Virus record (IMG/VR): IMGVR_UViG_3300017772_000001
Span: 1-64,000 of that record
Reading direction: 5' to 3' (one strand)
DNA length: 64,000 nucleotides
Source: a virus
How positions within the stretch are numbered: the stretch's first letter is position 1; each line of letters opens with the position of its first letter. The notes below the pieces were generated by a model, which saw only the letters and a program-made list of their open reading frames with translations, made no database searches and was not told where the DNA came from. A program made the position numbers and the translations under genes. Shown here piece after piece: positions 6,201 through 62,652 of this stretch.

Positions 6201-9200
6201 CCCATAGCGCCCGGTGTTGTTTCTGTAATAACTAAATCTGAATTTGAACTAGAAATTGTTATTGCGTTACCTGATGCTGATGCGTCTACAATACCCAACG
6301 CATTGATTTGATTAACAACCGATTGTGCAGTTGGATTACTTGTTGCACTATAATTACCAGCAGTCATGCCTAACACCGACAATGCTGTCCCAGCCAATGT
6401 CATTGTGTTGTTTGTACTTGCAATAGTTAACAATCCGCCCGCTGATACAGTAGATGTTATACCTGATATTGTAGATAGTTCTGTAGCAATATTTTTAAAC
6501 TTACTTTGTTTATATGATGAAGTAGTTGATAAACCCAAGTCAGTTAGTGCGGAACCTGATAGTTCAAGTACACCACTTGTTGTAGTTAATATTAACTCAT
6601 CATTCGCTGTTTTACTTGCAATAACATCAAGACTATTCGTATTAATGTTTAGTATAACTGCATCTATATCATCTGCCGCGGTTAGTGATAGCAATGTTCC
6701 ATTAACCTGTAGTGGTTTGTTTTGAGGTATAGTTGGCGCTGAAACAGTTCCAGTAACAGTTAAGTCTGCAAAAGACTTTGTTGTTCCATCAACGACAATA
6801 GTATCACCTGATGCAACCGCAGTTGTTTCTGTCACAGATGAAGTCTCGCTGATGCTAGAAATTGCACTATATCCAATAGTCAATGGTGTGCCATCAATTT
6901 CAATTATGTCATCTTTGACTGACGCTAACGCCGATGTTGCTGTTGCTGTTGTTCCTCTAAATGTAACAACTGTATTCGAGTTTACAATAGTTCCATTGTT
7001 TCCATATACAACCATTTGCATTTTTTCATTTGCTGATATTACCGGATCAACTGTTGCACCGTCACCACCTATTGCAATTCCACTTGATACTGAACCAGAC
7101 CCTGGTGTGTAAGTATAGCTTATGCCATCAATTACTAATGCATCACCTGATGCAAATACTGGGTTACTTACTGAGCCTATTGCTTCAACTCCTTGTGAGG
7201 ATGAAGTTGGTACAAACAAACTGCTAGATGTTGAACTATCGATTTCTACAATAAGAGGTTCATAATTTAATTCAAATACTAGGTACTCATATATTGTAAT
7301 TCCGCCTACTTCTTTTGTGCCGTTGCTTACTAGATAATAATAATCTGCAATTTCTGGATCAATAGTTTCATTTTTAATTTTTATATATACGCTATCAACG
7401 ATATCAATTTCATTTACTAAACCCAAATATAACTGATTGTCTTCTGTTTCACCAACATAAGAAATTTCTGCTACTTCACTTAAGCGTCTTACGTCCCATT
7501 CACGTATTGGGTCGAACTGCAACCAAGCTGTATCGCCTTCATATAATGTATTGGCATTCAATGATGTTAAATCATATTCTGTTTTTACTGTGTAATTAAC
7601 GTCATTTCCATCCACATATCCTGTAGTTCTAATTGGAAATTCTTTTGTAATATCTCTGTACACAAAAGGCCTAGGAAGCGTATCAAATTCTACAGCATGT
7701 GGGTCACTTAAAATGTCAATAGTGTTGACAGACTTAGTTATATTATATCCGTTGTTTACTTTACCATAGTCATCTACTTTTATTGCCCAAACATCTTGGT
7801 GAGTAATATCTTTGAAGTTACTATTGTTGTTAATAATTCTGTTAATAGAAGACTCAGTTCCTTTATGTGCCAAGAAGCCTTTATAGAATTCTAACGCACT
7901 TTCTCTTTCAATGCCGTGATTGCTTAAGTATGCTCGTTTGTTATATCCTATTTGTGAACCTTTTAGCCCATTTATTGCTTCCAAACTTTGGTCAATAAGT
8001 GTATCTCTGTAATACTTTGACTCTTCTGCCATTGTTTCAAAGTTAGGTATTAGTTCATCGCCGTATGTTAAATAACCGTCAACTGTTAAAGTTCCGTCCC
8101 AATCTGACTGCCTATTACAATCAATTTGCATACGTAAGTTTCTATTGTGCATATGAGGATCATATATTATGTCACCATAACTATCTACTCTGTCTACTAC
8201 AAACGCATGTTCTACGTCTTGTATATCAATCTTCATCCCGTATACCGGAACATTACTTCTAAAGTTTATGGCCTTGCCATCTGTTGTGAATGATATTTCT
8301 GAGTTTGGAATTAATCTTCCAGATGCATCTACAACACGATAGAAGTTTTTATGTGTTTCTTTTCTAACTGATGCGACACCATATGGTGCAGTGAAACTAC
8401 CTGTTAATAATACAGGAGATAGTGTAATAAAGTCTCCTGGTTCATGTGTCTCTGAACTCCATTCTAAGAATTTTAATAAAAGCTGTTTAAAGTCAATGGT
8501 GTTTCCATCTTCATCTATATCCGTAAATCCCCAACCTATCAGTCCTAAATATTCCTGATAGCCTACCATCAAGTGTGCGACATCATCTATCGAAGTTAAA
8601 ATATCACCATAGTTGAATGTTTTTACAGCATCATTTTTAAACTTTTTCCAACCGTATGCTGTAACTACATTAGTAACTGGCCATTCTACTAGCTGTTTCC
8701 AATCCTCAATGTTATCATCTATCAATGTAGTAGATGTATGTGCATTTAGACAAACATAAGGCTGTCCTTGATATTTCATATAAGAATCTTGTCTATAATA
8801 GTTTCCTTGTTGCCAATCAGAAAGATGCATTCTGTCACCTTTAGTACTGAATGCCTTTTCGCCAGATGTTCTATCCCAATCCATTGCAAAGAATGTAGGA
8901 TTGATATCGTCATATCCTTGTATTCTATATCCAAATGATTGTGTCTTTGGTTGAGAGATAAGAGACCATGCTTGATAATCAAATTGAATTATAGGACTTG
9001 ATTGTTGTTCTTTTGCTGTCTGTGACTCTGCTATTCTTCTGTAATATTTGCCGTCAAACTCATTTAAGACAATATCACCTTTTAGATATGTCATAGTATT
9101 TGCTTTTGAATATACCGGATGAGGGCTATCTAATGAAACTTTTTCAATAACAATAGCACTGAAAAATTCACTTCTATTCGGCTCACCAGAATGTATTACT

Positions 9201-16404: not shown

Positions 16405-16761
16405 TTATTCTCTCTTTAAATCTATTGTTAGTGTTACAGGCTCATTATCTGGTAATATAGCGACACTAATAGATGCTGTGACTGTATGCTCACCTTCAGT
16501 TAAGTTAATGGACTCTAAATTCACTCTAGGTTCATCGCTGATGATGTTCGTTAAATCTTCTTCAATAAGTGTTCTTATGTTAGAGGTCAACGGCTCAAAG
16601 ATAAGGTCATGTATAATCGACCCATAAGTAGGCATCATAATTCTTTCGCCTTTGCGAGTCATGATATTATTCAATAAATCTTCTACTACTAACTCTTTTC
16701 CAGTTAGAGTATGATTGATTGCACTTTTGTTTTTAGTACTGAAACCTATAAATCTTGCCAT
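16405..16761 (-). CDS. 25: Baseplate wedge protein gp25 (GPW/gp25 lysozyme-like family)
   Basis: 118 residues beginning [19 protein letters not shown], with the family signature of a small wedge-sheath connector: [15 protein letters not shown] near residue 35 followed by [19 protein letters not shown]. gp25 joins gp6 and gp53 and starts sheath polymerisation. The start at 16761 is preferred to an upstream ATG at 16800 because AGAGAG precedes it and the family begins here. A late-promoter element at 16787..16795 makes it the first gene of the gp25-gp6-giant operon. Length agrees with T4 gp25 (about 132). Confidence 0.93.
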
Positions 16762-16786
16762 AATGTTCTCTCTATACTTATTAAGA

Positions 16787-16795
16787 GTATTTATC
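16787..16795 (-). promoter_or_regulatory. T4-like late promoter element for the gp25-gp6 operon
   Basis: GATAAATAC on the minus strand, 25 bases before the gp25 start codon, back to back with the clpP promoter on the other strand. Confidence 0.75.
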
Positions 16796-16821
16796 AACAT
16801 ATAAACTTCGTACTTTTTGTA

Positions 16822-16850
16822 TTGACTTTTGTTGTAATTTCTGTTATTAT
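16822..16850 (+). promoter_or_regulatory. Sigma-70-type promoter of clpP
   Basis: TTGACT (16822-16827) and TATTAT (16845-16850) separated by 17 bases, about 37 bases before the clpP start codon. Confidence 0.7.
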
Positions 16851-16887
16851 TAATTTAATCAAATACAAATGGAGAATAAATAAAAGT

Positions 16888-17490
16888 ATGCCAAACTTAG
16901 TACCAATGGTCGTAGACCAAACTGCAAACGGAGAACGTAGCTTTGATATATTCTCACGTTTGTTAAAAGAAAGAGTTATATTCTTAACAGGTGAAGTCAA
17001 TGACTATCAGTCTGACTTACTTTGTGCCCAATTTCTGTTCCTAGAAGCAGAAAACCCAACAAAAGATATACATTTTTATATCAATTCACCAGGCGGAGCA
17101 GTAACAGCCGGAATGGCAATCTATGATACTATGCAATTCATTCAACCAGATGTTTCAACAATGGTTTTAGGTCAAGCGTGTAGCATGGGTTCATTATTGG
17201 CAACTGCGGGAGCTCCCGGCAAACGATTTATGTTACCTCATGCAAGACACATGATACATCAACCAAGTGGCGGCGCCGGTGGACAGGCAACTGACATGGA
17301 AATTCAAGTCAAAGAAATCTTAAAAGTTAAAGAAAGTTTGACTAGTATCTATGTAAAACATAACTCTAAAGGCAAAACTTATGAAGATTTCTATAGTGAT
17401 ATGGAACGTGATAAGTTCATGGGCCCAGAAGAGGCACTAGAATACGGGTTAATTGATAAAATTATCAATGAAAGACCTGAAAATCAGTAA
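16888..17490 (+). CDS. clpP: ClpP-family ATP-dependent serine protease subunit
   Basis: 200 residues starting [20 protein letters not shown], the usual bacterial ClpP N-terminus after the propeptide. The catalytic triad is intact: Ser99 in GQACSMGS, His124 in HMIHQPSGG and Asp175 in [11 protein letters not shown]. The oligomerisation helix and the YGLIDKII C-terminus are present, and length equals cellular ClpP. No Clp ATPase gene is visible in the window, so the phage subunit would need a host ClpX or ClpA, or could form mixed rings. It has its own sigma-70 promoter, GGAGAA upstream of the start and a strong terminator after it, making it a single-gene unit. Host-derived acquisition is likely. 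Confidence 0.95.
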
Positions 17491-18004: not shown

Positions 18005-18034
18005 AATTACATAATCAACAGAGAGGTTACTAAT

Positions 18035-18382
18035 ATGAAATACAAGTTATATCAAATTCATCTTACAGATGCAGAAATTGATTTAATCAATGAAGAAGGA
18101 CATGATGCTGTTCATAAGCAATCATTGAAATTAGATATGAATTTTTCAAAGAATGACACAGGTATGGTTGCCCGGGATGCATTCAATCGTGGATACTACA
18201 CGCATGTTAGTAACATCACTGCTGATAGTTTAGAGGGCGTGTTTCATGTAGGGAACATGGGCCCAGAAGAAGACATTGAGCGTTTGTCTCGTATGTACAG
18301 TGTTAGTGTTGGTGACATTGTGGAAGATGAAGATGGCAAGCAATCAGTAGTTGCTAATTTTGGTTTTAAAGAGGTAGCCTAA
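18035..18382 (+). CDS. Small protein, possibly YodL-like domain
   Basis: 115 residues, MKYKLYQIHLTDAEIDLINE. The C-terminal half, ITADSLEGVFHVGNMG then RMYSVSVGDIVEDEDGK, resembles the 'SxSVGDV' layout of YodL-like and related plasmid/phage accessory domains; this is a weak resemblance. It has its own promoter and an AGAGAGGTT leader. Its stop codon overlaps the stop of the convergent lysozyme-like gene by 4 bases. Function unknown; early expression is inferred from the promoter type. Confidence 0.75.
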   Translation: MKYKLYQIHLTDAEIDLINEEGHDAVHKQSLKLDMNFSKNDTGMVARDAFNRGYYTHVSNITADSLEGVFHVGNMGPEEDIERLSRMYSVSVGDIVEDEDGKQSVVANFGFKEVA

Positions 18383-29603: not shown

Positions 29604-30200
29604 ATGAAAAACGTTTTAATAACAGGAAACAGAGACTATGGGCTTTGCAAGAGTATTTGCAATCTGTTTGATACTGTGGATGATATTAACTATACTACTG
29701 TCAGTCGGAGCAATGGTTGGAATTTGGACGTAGGCCCAGAACAAAAACGACTAGCAGATTATTTTGTAGATAATAAATTTGATATCTTTATTAACAATTC
29801 CGCAATATGGAAGTTTCATCAAATTATGATTGCTGAACAAGTTTATGCAAAATGCGTTGAAGAAAAACATTCTGCATATTTGATACATATGGGTTCTACA
29901 GCCGATACAGGTGTAAAAGGAAGAACGTGGAGATACCCAACTGAAAAGAAAGCATTAAGAGATTACAATCGTGACCTAACATACATGACAATGGGTGGGT
30001 CTAATATAAAGACTACATGTTTGTCACCGGGCAGTTTGACTACACCAAGTGTGATGAAAAAACACCCTGATAGAAAGTTTTTAGATACAGAGTATGTAGC
30101 CGATTTAATTTTATGGTTGATTAATCAACCAGATTATGTTAATATTAACGAAATTTCTGTAGACCCAATACAAGCAGGAATATACGCAAGAGAGAGGTAA
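29604..30200 (+). CDS. Short-chain dehydrogenase/reductase-like protein between gp47 and gp46
   Basis: 198 residues. SDR features are present in order: an N-terminal strand ending VLITGNRDYGL (a degenerate TGxxxGxG loop), INNSA (Asn64-Asn65) in place of NNAG, then Ser98 in HMGSTADTG, Tyr111 and Lys115 in YPTEKKAL with the exact Ser-13-Tyr-4-Lys spacing, and LSPGSLTTP in place of the PG motif. It is shorter than typical SDRs (about 250). The full catalytic set argues for an active NAD(P)-dependent enzyme, substrate unknown. It lies 2 bases after gp47 and 4 bases before gp46, so all three are cotranslated from the gp55 promoter. An unusual insertion into a conserved recombination operon. Confidence 0.8.
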   Translation: MKNVLITGNRDYGLCKSICNLFDTVDDINYTTVSRSNGWNLDVGPEQKRLADYFVDNKFDIFINNSAIWKFHQIMIAEQVYAKCVEEKHSAYLIHMGSTADTGVKGRTWRYPTEKKALRDYNRDLTYMTMGGSNIKTTCLSPGSLTTPSVMKKHPDRKFLDTEYVADLILWLINQPDYVNINEISVDPIQAGIYARER

Positions 30201-30204
30201 ACGT

Positions 30205-32013
30205 TTGCTAAAGATTAAGAATATAACAGTTAAAAACTTCATGAGTGTAGGTAACGTCACGCAGTCTGTAATACTGGACCGTGATGCATTAACACTCGTT
30301 TTAGGTAATAACTTAGACTTGGGAGGCGATGGTTCTCGTAACGGTACAGGAAAGACCACACTTATTAATGCACTTTCATATGGTATATATGGCAATGCAC
30401 TTACTAATATTAGAAAAGACAATCTAATTAATAAGACAAATGGTAAGAACATGATTGTCACCATTGATTTTGAATTCAATGGAAGTCAGTACAGGATTGA
30501 ACGTGGACGTAGACCTAATATATTCAGATTCATTAGAGACGGTATAGATTTAAATTCAGCCGATGATGTAGCACAAGGCGAAATGAGACAAACACAAGTA
30601 GAAGTTGATTCTATTATTGGTATTTCTCATTCAATGTTTAAGCACATTGTTGCACTCAATACCTATACTGAACCTTTCTTAAGTATGAGAGCAAACGACC
30701 AAAGAGAGTTGATTGAAGAACTTTTAGGTATTACAGAATTATCTCGCAAAGCTGATGCACTCAAGGAAGTAGTTAAAGAAACAAAAGACCAAATCAAAGA
30801 TGAAGAATATAGTCTTAAGGCAAAAGAAGATGCAAATTCTCGTATTCTAAAGAGTATTACAGACATAGAACGTAGGCAACGTATATGGAATGATAAACAT
30901 GATACAGAATTAACTGAATTAGAATCTGCCCTAGACGCATTATCTCATGTAGATATCAAACAAGAGATTGCTAATCATCAATTATTAAATGCATACAATG
31001 ATAAGAAAACAAAGTTAGATGAAGCGAACCGTTGGGTTACAAGTATTACTGCCGACAATAAAAAGTTTTCTGATTTAGAAGTAAGAGTAGTCGGTGATAT
31101 AGAATCTATCAAAGACCATAAATGCTTTGCATGTGGGCAAGAAGTACACGATAGCAAACAAGAAGAAATTCTAAAAGATAAAGAAGAACTATTAGCAGAT
31201 ACACGCAGTCATTTATCAGAAAATAATGTAAAACTAGAGGAACACACTACCACAATAAATAACGTAGGTGAACTCGGTAGCAAGCCTTCGGTGTTTTATG
31301 AAGACTTAAATGATGCATACGAACATCAAAACTCAGTTAGTATGCTAAAGGAACAAATTGAAAGTAAGAAAACACAAGAAGACCCGTACACTGAACAGAT
31401 TAAAGAAATGCGTGAAAGTAGTTTAGAAGAATTAAACTATAATACAATGAACGCACTTATTTCTTATCGTGAACATCAGGACTTCTTAATGAAACTATTA
31501 ACAAACAAAGATAGTTTTATTCGTAAAAAGATTATTGACCAAAACTTATCATACTTAAATACACGGTTAGAAAAGTATCTTGATAAACTAGGTCTACCAC
31601 ATGAAGTCAAATTCTTAAGTGATTTGACAGTAGAAATTACAGAGTTAGGTCGTGAACTTGACTTTGACAACTTAAGCAGAGGTGAACGTAACAGACTTAT
31701 TCTAGGACTATCATGGGCATTCCGTGATATCTATGAATCACTTTATAGTACTATCAATGTTCTATTTGTTGATGAACTTATTGATAGTGGTATGGATACT
31801 AATGGTGTTGAGTCGTCATTAGCAACACTTAAAAAGATGCAACGTGATAGAAATCGTTCTATCTTTTTAGTGTCACACAGGGACGAGTTATACGGTCGTG
31901 TAACAAACGTGCTTAACGTAATTAAAGAAAACGGATTTACTACATTTTCTCACGATGATGCAGTAGAATTAACTGATACAAATAAACCAGTAGAAGGAGT
32001 ACCTAATGTCTGA
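30205..32013 (+). CDS. 46: Recombination endonuclease subunit gp46 (Rad50/SbcC-like)
   Basis: 602 residues (T4 gp46 is 560). Translation starts at TTG (30205), chosen because GAGAGAGG lies 7 bases upstream and the encoded MLKIKNITVKNFMSVG matches the family start. Walker A is NGTGKTT with Lys50; long coiled-coil arms flank a zinc hook (Cys307 and Cys310 in CFACGQ). The ABC signature LSRGERNRL is at about 490 and Walker B (NVLFVDELID) at about 518. It pairs with gp47 as the ATP-driven end-processing complex. The loop before Walker A is longer than usual (GNNLDLGGDGSRNGTGK). Confidence 0.94.
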   Translation: MLKIKNITVKNFMSVGNVTQSVILDRDALTLVLGNNLDLGGDGSRNGTGKTTLINALSYGIYGNALTNIRKDNLINKTNGKNMIVTIDFEFNGSQYRIERGRRPNIFRFIRDGIDLNSADDVAQGEMRQTQVEVDSIIGISHSMFKHIVALNTYTEPFLSMRANDQRELIEELLGITELSRKADALKEVVKETKDQIKDEEYSLKAKEDANSRILKSITDIERRQRIWNDKHDTELTELESALDALSHVDIKQEIANHQLLNAYNDKKTKLDEANRWVTSITADNKKFSDLEVRVVGDIESIKDHKCFACGQEVHDSKQEEILKDKEELLADTRSHLSENNVKLEEHTTTINNVGELGSKPSVFYEDLNDAYEHQNSVSMLKEQIESKKTQEDPYTEQIKEMRESSLEELNYNTMNALISYREHQDFLMKLLTNKDSFIRKKIIDQNLSYLNTRLEKYLDKLGLPHEVKFLSDLTVEITELGRELDFDNLSRGERNRLILGLSWAFRDIYESLYSTINVLFVDELIDSGMDTNGVESSLATLKKMQRDRNRSIFLVSHRDELYGRVTNVLNVIKENGFTTFSHDDAVELTDTNKPVEGVPNV

Positions 32014-32278: not shown

Positions 32279-32455
32279 ATGAATACACATGAAAAAATCG
32301 TAGAACAATATGAAAACTATTTAACTGAACATGCGGCATGGGAAGAAAAAGGTGTTAAAGCCGCGGCCGCAAGAGCAAGAAAGGCTCTTGGTGAAATTGG
32401 TAAAATGACCAAAGAACGCCGTAAAGAAATTCAGGAAAAAAAGAATAATATGTAA
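32279..32455 (+). CDS. 58-residue basic helical protein, histone H1/Hc1-like
   Basis: Begins MNTHEKIVEQYENYL, with AAGGAG at a good distance from the ATG at 32279. The second half is Ala/Lys/Arg-rich: GVKAAAARARKALGEIGKMT followed by KERRKEIQEKK. This pattern (KGxKAAAxRxRKALxEIxKxxKxRRxEIQ) resembles chlamydial Hc1-type histone-like proteins, suggesting DNA or RNA binding. Last gene of the gp55 operon. The resemblance is by eye; the compact size means function cannot be stated firmly. Confidence 0.75.
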   Translation: MNTHEKIVEQYENYLTEHAAWEEKGVKAAAARARKALGEIGKMTKERRKEIQEKKNNM

Positions 32456-32463
32456 AAAAAGTG

Positions 32464-32492
32464 TTGACAACACTTACTTTTTTTGCTATTAT
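32464..32492 (+). promoter_or_regulatory. Sigma-70 promoter with extended -10, upstream of the candidate small RNA
   Basis: TTGACA (32464-32469), 17-base spacer, TATTAT (32487-32492) directly preceded by TGC as in extended -10 promoters. It drives the 32499..32610 unit. Confidence 0.8.
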
Positions 32493-32498
32493 AGTAAG

Positions 32499-32610
32499 TA
32501 TATTAAAGATGTGAAGTGTCTCCTCTCAACCTCTCTCATCTAACTGAGCATCTTTATTATTCTCACACAGAGAGCAACATCAAGCCCGGCACAGTGTGTC
32601 GGGCTTTTTT
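32499..32610 (+). ncRNA. Candidate small RNA with CU-rich anti-Shine-Dalgarno loop
   Basis: The stretch between a strong promoter and a strong terminator has no start codon with a ribosome binding site. The RNA would be about 112 nt. An 8-bp stem TAAAGATG (32504-32511) / CATCTTTA (32549-32556) presents a 37-base, CU-rich loop including CTCCTCTCAACCTCTCTC (32522..32537 region). A nested 4-bp CTCA/TGAG hairpin lies at its 3' side. CCTCTCTC is complementary to the GAGAGAGG-type ribosome binding sites used by this phage. A second single-stranded segment (TTCTCACACAGAGAG) precedes the terminator. Alternative reading: a leader of the downstream small genes. Confidence 0.6.
32582..32610 (+). terminator. 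Rho-independent terminator of the candidate small RNA
   Basis: 11-bp stem AAGCCCGGCAC / GTGTCGGGCTT (one G-U pair), 3-base loop, then a run of T. Confidence 0.85.
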
Positions 32611-32626
32611 ATAGAAAGATTATGTT

Positions 32627-32818
32627 ATGCAACAACCGATTGATAGAAACAAAATTAAACAAATAGAAAAAGAAAAACTAGATAAGCAAGTTAAAAAATA
32701 TTTGAAAAAAGGCGGAACTGTTTCAGTATACCCCGAAGGCGCAATCACAGATGAAGGCCAAATGAATTATAAATTTAGACGTGGTATGAAGAAGAAAACT
32801 AATAATGAAAAGCCGTAA
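32627..32818 (+). CDS. Small basic protein of unknown function
   Basis: 63 residues, MQQPIDRNKIKQIEKEKLDK, lysine-rich with a central GGTVSVYPEGAITDE turn and a basic C-terminus (RRGMKKKTNNEKP). The binding site is modest (AGAAAG). It is the first of three overlapping small genes (14- and 17-base overlaps) read in the same direction. The overlapping chain, the conserved codon style and lack of competing frames support it as a real gene; function unknown. Confidence 0.6.
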   Translation: MQQPIDRNKIKQIEKEKLDKQVKKYLKKGGTVSVYPEGAITDEGQMNYKFRRGMKKKTNNEKP

Positions 32819-35717: not shown

Positions 35718-35802
35718 ACTTATAATAAAACTTAAAGTGTTATATACGTATATTTAGACATATTATAAACTACGTAGTTTAACTTGTCAAGAGGTATTTT
35801 GA

Positions 35803-62008: not shown

Positions 62009-62052
62009 TCTTATATAAAGTAAAGTTTCGAAACTTTTTAGGAGACAAAAAC

Positions 62053-62652
62053 ATGGCAAGAACATTAAATACTTTCGGTGTACCTACAGACAGTGGCGAT
62101 GGCGTAACTGGCTCAGGTATTCTACAGCCTAAATTAAACTATCGTTTCCGTGTTCAAGTAGCAGGCTTCGGTGGTGTAACTACGAATACAACCGAATTCA
62201 CAAGACAGGTTATGAACGTAACTCGTCCAAAGATTACACACGAATCAATTCCTGTAGATTCATATAACTCTCGTATGTACATGATGGGTAAACACACATG
62301 GGAACCTATCACAATTACTCTACGTGATGATATTGCAAACAATTTAACTAAACTAGTAGGTAGACAAGTACAGTCACAGTTGAACCACAGAAATCAATCT
62401 GGTCCAGCGGCAGGTACTAACTACAAGTTTTCTACATTAATTGAAATACTTGACGGTAACTCAGGCAATCCAAACGAACAATGGCAACTAGAAGGTTGTT
62501 TTGTTCAGAATGCAGATTATTCTCAGTCAGATTACTCAGTTTCAGATCCAGTAACTATCGCACTTACATTACAGTACGATAATGCTGTGTTCACTGATAC
62601 TGAAATTATGCCTGATACGACATTTACAAATAATTCAAGCATTCTTGGTTAA
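62053..62652 (+). CDS. 19: Tail tube protein gp19
   Basis: 199 residues (T4 gp19 is 163). MARTLNTFGVPTDSGDGVTG, then LNYRFRVQVAGFGG, RPKITHESIPVDSYNSRMYM, GKHTWEPITITLRDDIANN and the closing VSDPVTIALTLQYDNAVF are the standard tube fold. It forms the inner tube around the tape measure inside the sheath. AGGAG precedes the ATG, and the order 18-19 is as in T4. Confidence 0.96.
   Translation: MARTLNTFGVPTDSGDGVTGSGILQPKLNYRFRVQVAGFGGVTTNTTEFTRQVMNVTRPKITHESIPVDSYNSRMYMMGKHTWEPITITLRDDIANNLTKLVGRQVQSQLNHRNQSGPAAGTNYKFSTLIEILDGNSGNPNEQWQLEGCFVQNADYSQSDYSVSDPVTIALTLQYDNAVFTDTEIMPDTTFTNNSSILG

Follow-up and report, generated by a model that had tools for sequence, protein, structure and literature searches.

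A phage small-RNA gene was identified in the window, the whole stretch of 64,000 nucleotides analysed here out of a phage record that spans 81,343 bases. It probably encodes a trans-acting RNA with two anti-Shine-Dalgarno seeds, which would lower the translation of mRNAs with purine-rich ribosome-binding sites. The gene and its parts are as follows:

32464-32492, plus strand: sigma70-type promoter (TTGACA, 17 nt, TG-C-TATTAT); TTGAC-containing promoters also lie 5' of the RNA in relatives
32499-32612, plus strand: gene for the small RNA of about 113 nt, its start placed from the -10 box
32500-32560, plus strand: main hairpin, arms 32500-32517 and 32543-32560, with compensatory changes in relatives
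32516-32538, plus strand: invariant loop segment GUGUCUCCUCUCAACCUCUCUCA, with weak pairing of its two leading bases in the fold
32517-32527, plus strand: box 1, UGUCUCCUCUC, complementary to ribosome-binding sites of the AGGAGACA type
32528-32537, plus strand: box 2, AACCUCUCUC, complementary to ribosome-binding sites of the GAGAGAGGU type
32561-32573, plus strand: small second hairpin, UCUC-ACACA-GAGA, predicted in many relatives too
32582-32612, plus strand: intrinsic terminator, stem 32582-32606 of 11 pairs, then TTTTTT

The gene lies in a gap, free of protein genes, that runs from the stop codon at 32455 to the ATG at 32627. The promoter matches the consensus at 11 of 12 positions (TTGACA at 32464-32469, TATTAT at 32487-32492, TG one base 5' of the latter). 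The promoter with extended -10, the strong terminator and the roughly 112 gene-free bases between them, all described in a first-pass annotation of this DNA, were thus borne out, the last as about 113 nt with neither a gene nor a conserved reading frame. Having its own promoter and terminator and no conserved coding frame, which are marks of trans-acting anti-Shine-Dalgarno sRNAs, the segment 32464-32612 is well supported as a stand-alone small-RNA gene that is presumably transcribed. Folded alone, the RNA reaches -34 kcal/mol (z -3.9 relative to dinucleotide shuffles). Immediately 5' of the gene lies a 58-aa histone H1-like Hc1 protein (32279-32455), and directly 3' of the terminator a 63-aa protein (32627-32818) whose match to the SutA RNA-polymerase-binding domain stays below threshold. 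Elsewhere in the window, a homologue of Clp protease is encoded at 16711-17487, and a perfect promoter, TTGACA-17-TATAAT, is present on the minus strand at 35762-35790.

In the predicted fold, the main hairpin consists of helices of 3, 9 and 3 pairs enclosing a 25-nt unpaired loop; the CU-rich loop of the first-pass annotation is therefore retained, but its 8-bp stem becomes nine pairs with two 3-pair extensions. The loop contains two anti-Shine-Dalgarno seeds, UGUCUCCU and ACCUCUCUC, and occurs once in the window, where shuffles predict 0 occurrences. The CU core has a mean unpaired probability of 0.99 within the invariant segment, and it is likewise unpaired in all 23 copies of alignment A2 when these are folded singly (mean probability 0.89-0.99, with MFE z scores of -4 to -7). 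That the loop of the RNA is accessible is well supported by these predictions.

Dozens of related contigs of marine phages, falling into two clades, carry the RNA gene 3' of gp46, at 1.9-4.9 kb from the gp46 start in the copies whose locus reaches gp46. Both clades have the loop UGUCUCCUCU-(1-4 nt)-ACCUCUC. The first loop pattern was found in 38 viral contigs, flanked by promoter, hairpin and terminator. Relaxed patterns revealed clade 2, in which the loop is nearly unchanged (UGUCUCCUCUAAACCUCUCUCAUCG) while the stems and the reading frame are different, as well as loop variants in which the junction is shorter (L245) or the second box is truncated (L270). After filtering, at most 47 distinct copies were counted, an upper figure because at least one match among them, with the junction TGCT and a broken box 2 (L474), is probably unrelated to the RNA. 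A covariance model detected one copy in each tested genome carrying the RNA (sRNA+), together with weak minus-strand echoes at the same site (E 0.03-0.1), and no copy in relatives without it (sRNA-). The loop pattern also gave 18 matches in bacterial and archaeal genomes, which were rejected, promoter and hairpin being absent from all of them. The RNA gene was not found in a nucleotide search of cultured phages, no Rfam family matches the RNA at the gathering score, and open-licence papers yielded no earlier description of such a phage RNA.

Two further elements were observed at related loci. At the equivalent place beside gp46, contig L019 carries a hairpin (8022-8138) with another CU-containing loop (ACCATTCTCTCTAAC), which is possibly a diverged copy; it was not accepted as a member, as its loop letters differ and the covariance model gives it no score, and none of the 53 contigs found in a scan for its loop passed the hairpin-and-terminator filter. 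Clade-2 loci possess a second strongly conserved segment, GGGTTAGACCTTAACGTACCA, 3' of the CU hairpin (for example L449:1224-1244 and L465:1716-1736); 26 viral contigs contain it, and with few exceptions these are the same clade-2 loci.

The conservation pattern separates the loop clearly from the stem. The first-pass annotation had named a loop less conserved than its stems as the pattern that would speak against its reading; we found the opposite, with the 23 loop columns of 12 distinct clade-1 hairpins being 100% identical and the arms about 81% identical. On the plain MAFFT alignment A2, RNAalifold returned no structure because long-stem copies misalign, and single folds together with alignment A4 were used in its place. 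In A4, 91% of cells are paired and both sides have changed in 7 of 16 pairs in at least one sequence; the covariation score was reached by none of 500 shuffles and exceeds that of every slid register. The proposal of an exposed CU-rich loop kept against a varying stem thus agrees with an invariant clade-1 loop on stems that change with compensation.

The same comparison bears on what kind of element this is. A 10-codon GTG frame runs across the loop in the window, but a short coding sequence is contradicted by the relatives, in which the start codon is not kept, the loop length changes by 1-2 nt and clade 2 has another frame; we consider this explanation almost certainly wrong. Control of the downstream gene in cis, with the RNA as its leader or attenuator, is also very unlikely. 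About 15 nt separate the terminator from the ATG of that gene, for which no promoter of its own was seen, but the gene itself differs between the clades, encoding a SutA-like protein in the window and a membrane-like protein of 84 aa in clade 2, while the loop and hairpin are kept. For the trans-acting RNA that we favour, the candidate targets and the neighbouring gp46 gene are:

30190-30198, plus strand: GAGAGAGGT in the gp46 leader, the best conserved candidate target, exact 9-nt complement
30205-32013, plus strand: gp46, a DNA-repair gene for an SbcC-like nuclease subunit, the RNA gene's upstream neighbour wherever the locus reaches gp46
18020-18028, plus strand: AGAGAGGTT before the gene at 18035, candidate target, exact 9-nt complement
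62040-62047, plus strand: AGGAGACA in the tail-tube leader (gene at 62053), candidate target by sequence complementarity

Both complementarities proposed earlier proved exact, the one before the gene at 18035 as described, whereas the one before gp46 covers 9 nt rather than 8. Among 119 ortholog groups having at least 3 members, the gp46 leader ranks first. It contains AAGAGAGAGGT, AAGAGAGGT or a near variant (AAGAGGGGT, GGGAGAGG, AGAGAGAGA) in almost every sRNA+ phage, and no complementary site in sRNA- relatives; an exception is the L245/L304 loop variant, whose gp46 leader lacks the motif (AAGATAAAGGTGA). The conservation of GAGAGAGGU before gp46 may have other causes, since this sequence includes a normal Shine-Dalgarno core and shares bases with the end of the preceding gene. 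In five sRNA+ genomes AGGAGACA stands before the tail-tube gene; the sRNA- orthologs lack it there. On the basis of these leader sequences, gp46 and the tail-tube gene are the best candidate targets.

With the Shine-Dalgarno core held fixed, three motifs, AGGAGACA, GAGAGG and GAGAGA, are overrepresented in sRNA+ phages. Given AGGAG, AGGAGACA is present in 15 of 163 leaders in sRNA+ versus 4 of 172 in sRNA- phages (p 0.008), and GAGAGG, given GAGG, in 17 of 152 versus 4 of 139 (p 0.006), an enrichment that weakens with one leader per ortholog group (AGGAGACA p 0.036, GAGAGG p 0.0097); these p values serve as guides, given a simple gene-start caller that favours Shine-Dalgarno sites, a small sRNA- set and the relatedness of the genomes. 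The overall leader signal is weak when set against shuffled loops of matched composition: the paired difference was equalled in 19 of 200 shuffles, a fraction of 0.03-0.45 of shuffled loops attains the observed mean signal per genome, and in a deep member (G004) the signal is not above that of shuffled loops. Purine-rich Shine-Dalgarno sites as such account for part of the enrichment of box-complementary motifs in sRNA+ phages, and the warning that some leader complementarity would arise by chance was justified, the total signal being only modestly above shuffled loops. Pairing of the loop with the predicted target leaders is accordingly likely rather than established, because a large part of the signal also arises with shuffled loops of the same composition.

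This weak enrichment could also be read as a sign that the loop is bait for a protein or another small RNA, a sponge instead of an mRNA-pairing element, the more so as a loop of 23 nt that is invariant in clade 1 and nearly unchanged in clade 2 exceeds what one seed needs. We regard this as improbable: the loop length is explicable by two seeds, and complementary sites are present in the gp46 and tail-tube leaders of sRNA+ phages and absent from sRNA- orthologs.

Two relatives, G001 and G003, encode a permuted tmRNA of alphaproteobacterial type (L145:19593-19952, L169:1184-1530; tags ANANYQPEMAMAA and ANDNYQPEMAMAA) along with several tRNAs, and the tmRNA type suggests an alphaproteobacterial host. 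A host search via this tmRNA returned short matches only and named no host. The closest relatives of the gp46 protein in cultured phages are those of large phages of Pseudomonas and rhizobia. Host mRNAs as the main targets, with the phage matches incidental, would fit the invariance of the loop across diverging phages, which is consistent with a constraint outside the phage, and the tmRNA type points to an alphaproteobacterial host. Nevertheless, 385 genomes of one class (presumed Alphaproteobacteria) yielded a single near-complete loop complement, at 3 mismatches, as many as the reversed control (1), in a search for long matches and not for 7-10 nt seeds; we hold a predominantly host-directed role to be rather unlikely.

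Several known RNAs resemble the one described here. The rhizobial AbcR1/2 and NfeR1 RNAs are short and repress many mRNAs at the ribosome-binding site; they have two or three anti-Shine-Dalgarno motifs in unpaired regions, one of which lies in a hairpin loop in AbcR (PMC8844928). The phage RNA likewise has two unpaired anti-Shine-Dalgarno segments, as in AbcR1/2 (alpha-r15), and its host class is possibly that of AbcR1/2 and NfeR1; however, these are bacterial genes, the phage RNA has no corresponding Rfam match, and the AbcR1/2 motifs CUCCUCCC and UUCCCCUC are absent from 32499-32612. RNAs of RF02278 (Betaproteobacteria toxic sRNA; bdhR1/ncS27, S17) have CU-rich unpaired regions with predicted or shown action at ribosome-binding sites, and overexpression of ncS27 slows growth (PMC5688073, PMC11722255). 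The 5' UGUCUCCU of the RF02278 consensus equals box 1 and its 3' terminator is similar, but in the phage RNA this seed is part of a hairpin loop, and the RF02278 RNAs have a short double-hairpin architecture and are encoded by bacteria. The phage RNA scores 27.9 bits against RF02278 (E 0.00049), below the gathering score of 50, and a clade-2 copy does not match, so that RF02278 is an analogue of the phage RNA and not its family.

The first-pass annotation pointed to cyanobacterial Yfr1, an analogy that is fair as to mechanism, although AbcR1/2, NfeR1 and RF02278 are closer. Yfr1/Yfr10 have a conserved single-stranded pyrimidine motif with a UCCU core needed for pairing (PMC6778093), which in Yfr10 sits on a hairpin loop as in the phage RNA; the motif and the host group are different, and there is no Rfam match to the phage RNA. 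Among phages, sar of P22 and c4 of P1/P7 block translation of an mRNA, and the phage small RNAs reviewed mostly serve a single lysogeny gene or host circuit (PMC12197685); sar and c4 differ from the present RNA in having one dedicated target, ant mRNA, and in belonging to temperate phages. By analogy, the phage RNA would work like the AbcR1/2, NfeR1 and RF02278 RNAs while belonging to none of these groups.

The sequence itself shows the parts of the gene, its conserved loop and covarying stem, and the complementarities to the gp46 and tail-tube leaders; synthesis of the RNA, its pairing, repression through blocked ribosome-binding sites and the timing of its action in infection are inferred. 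Host RNA polymerase would transcribe the RNA from the sigma70-type promoter to the intrinsic terminator; the hairpin would keep a CU-rich loop of 22-25 nt open with both seeds, UGUCUCCU for AGGAGACA-type and ACCUCUCUC for GAGAGAGGU-type purine-rich ribosome-binding sites; and pairing would lower translation, probably of several phage genes including the neighbouring gp46 and the tail-tube gene, and possibly of host genes. More tentatively, the two-seed RNA might be a translational timer of the large phage family's own program, made early from the host-type promoter and delaying mRNAs with AGGAGACA/GAGAGAGG sites (tail and recombination genes), a proposal that we consider possible though doubtful.

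The analysis yields specific targets and sites that can be tested, and a covariance model capable of finding more members. A phage RNA built on the seed UGUCUCCU shares this element with bacterial RNAs that block ribosome-binding sites, and a loop kept nearly letter for letter on changing stems in two clades suggests a many-target phage RNA regulator. If it does act as a timer, phage ribosome-binding sites would have evolved into or out of its regulon.
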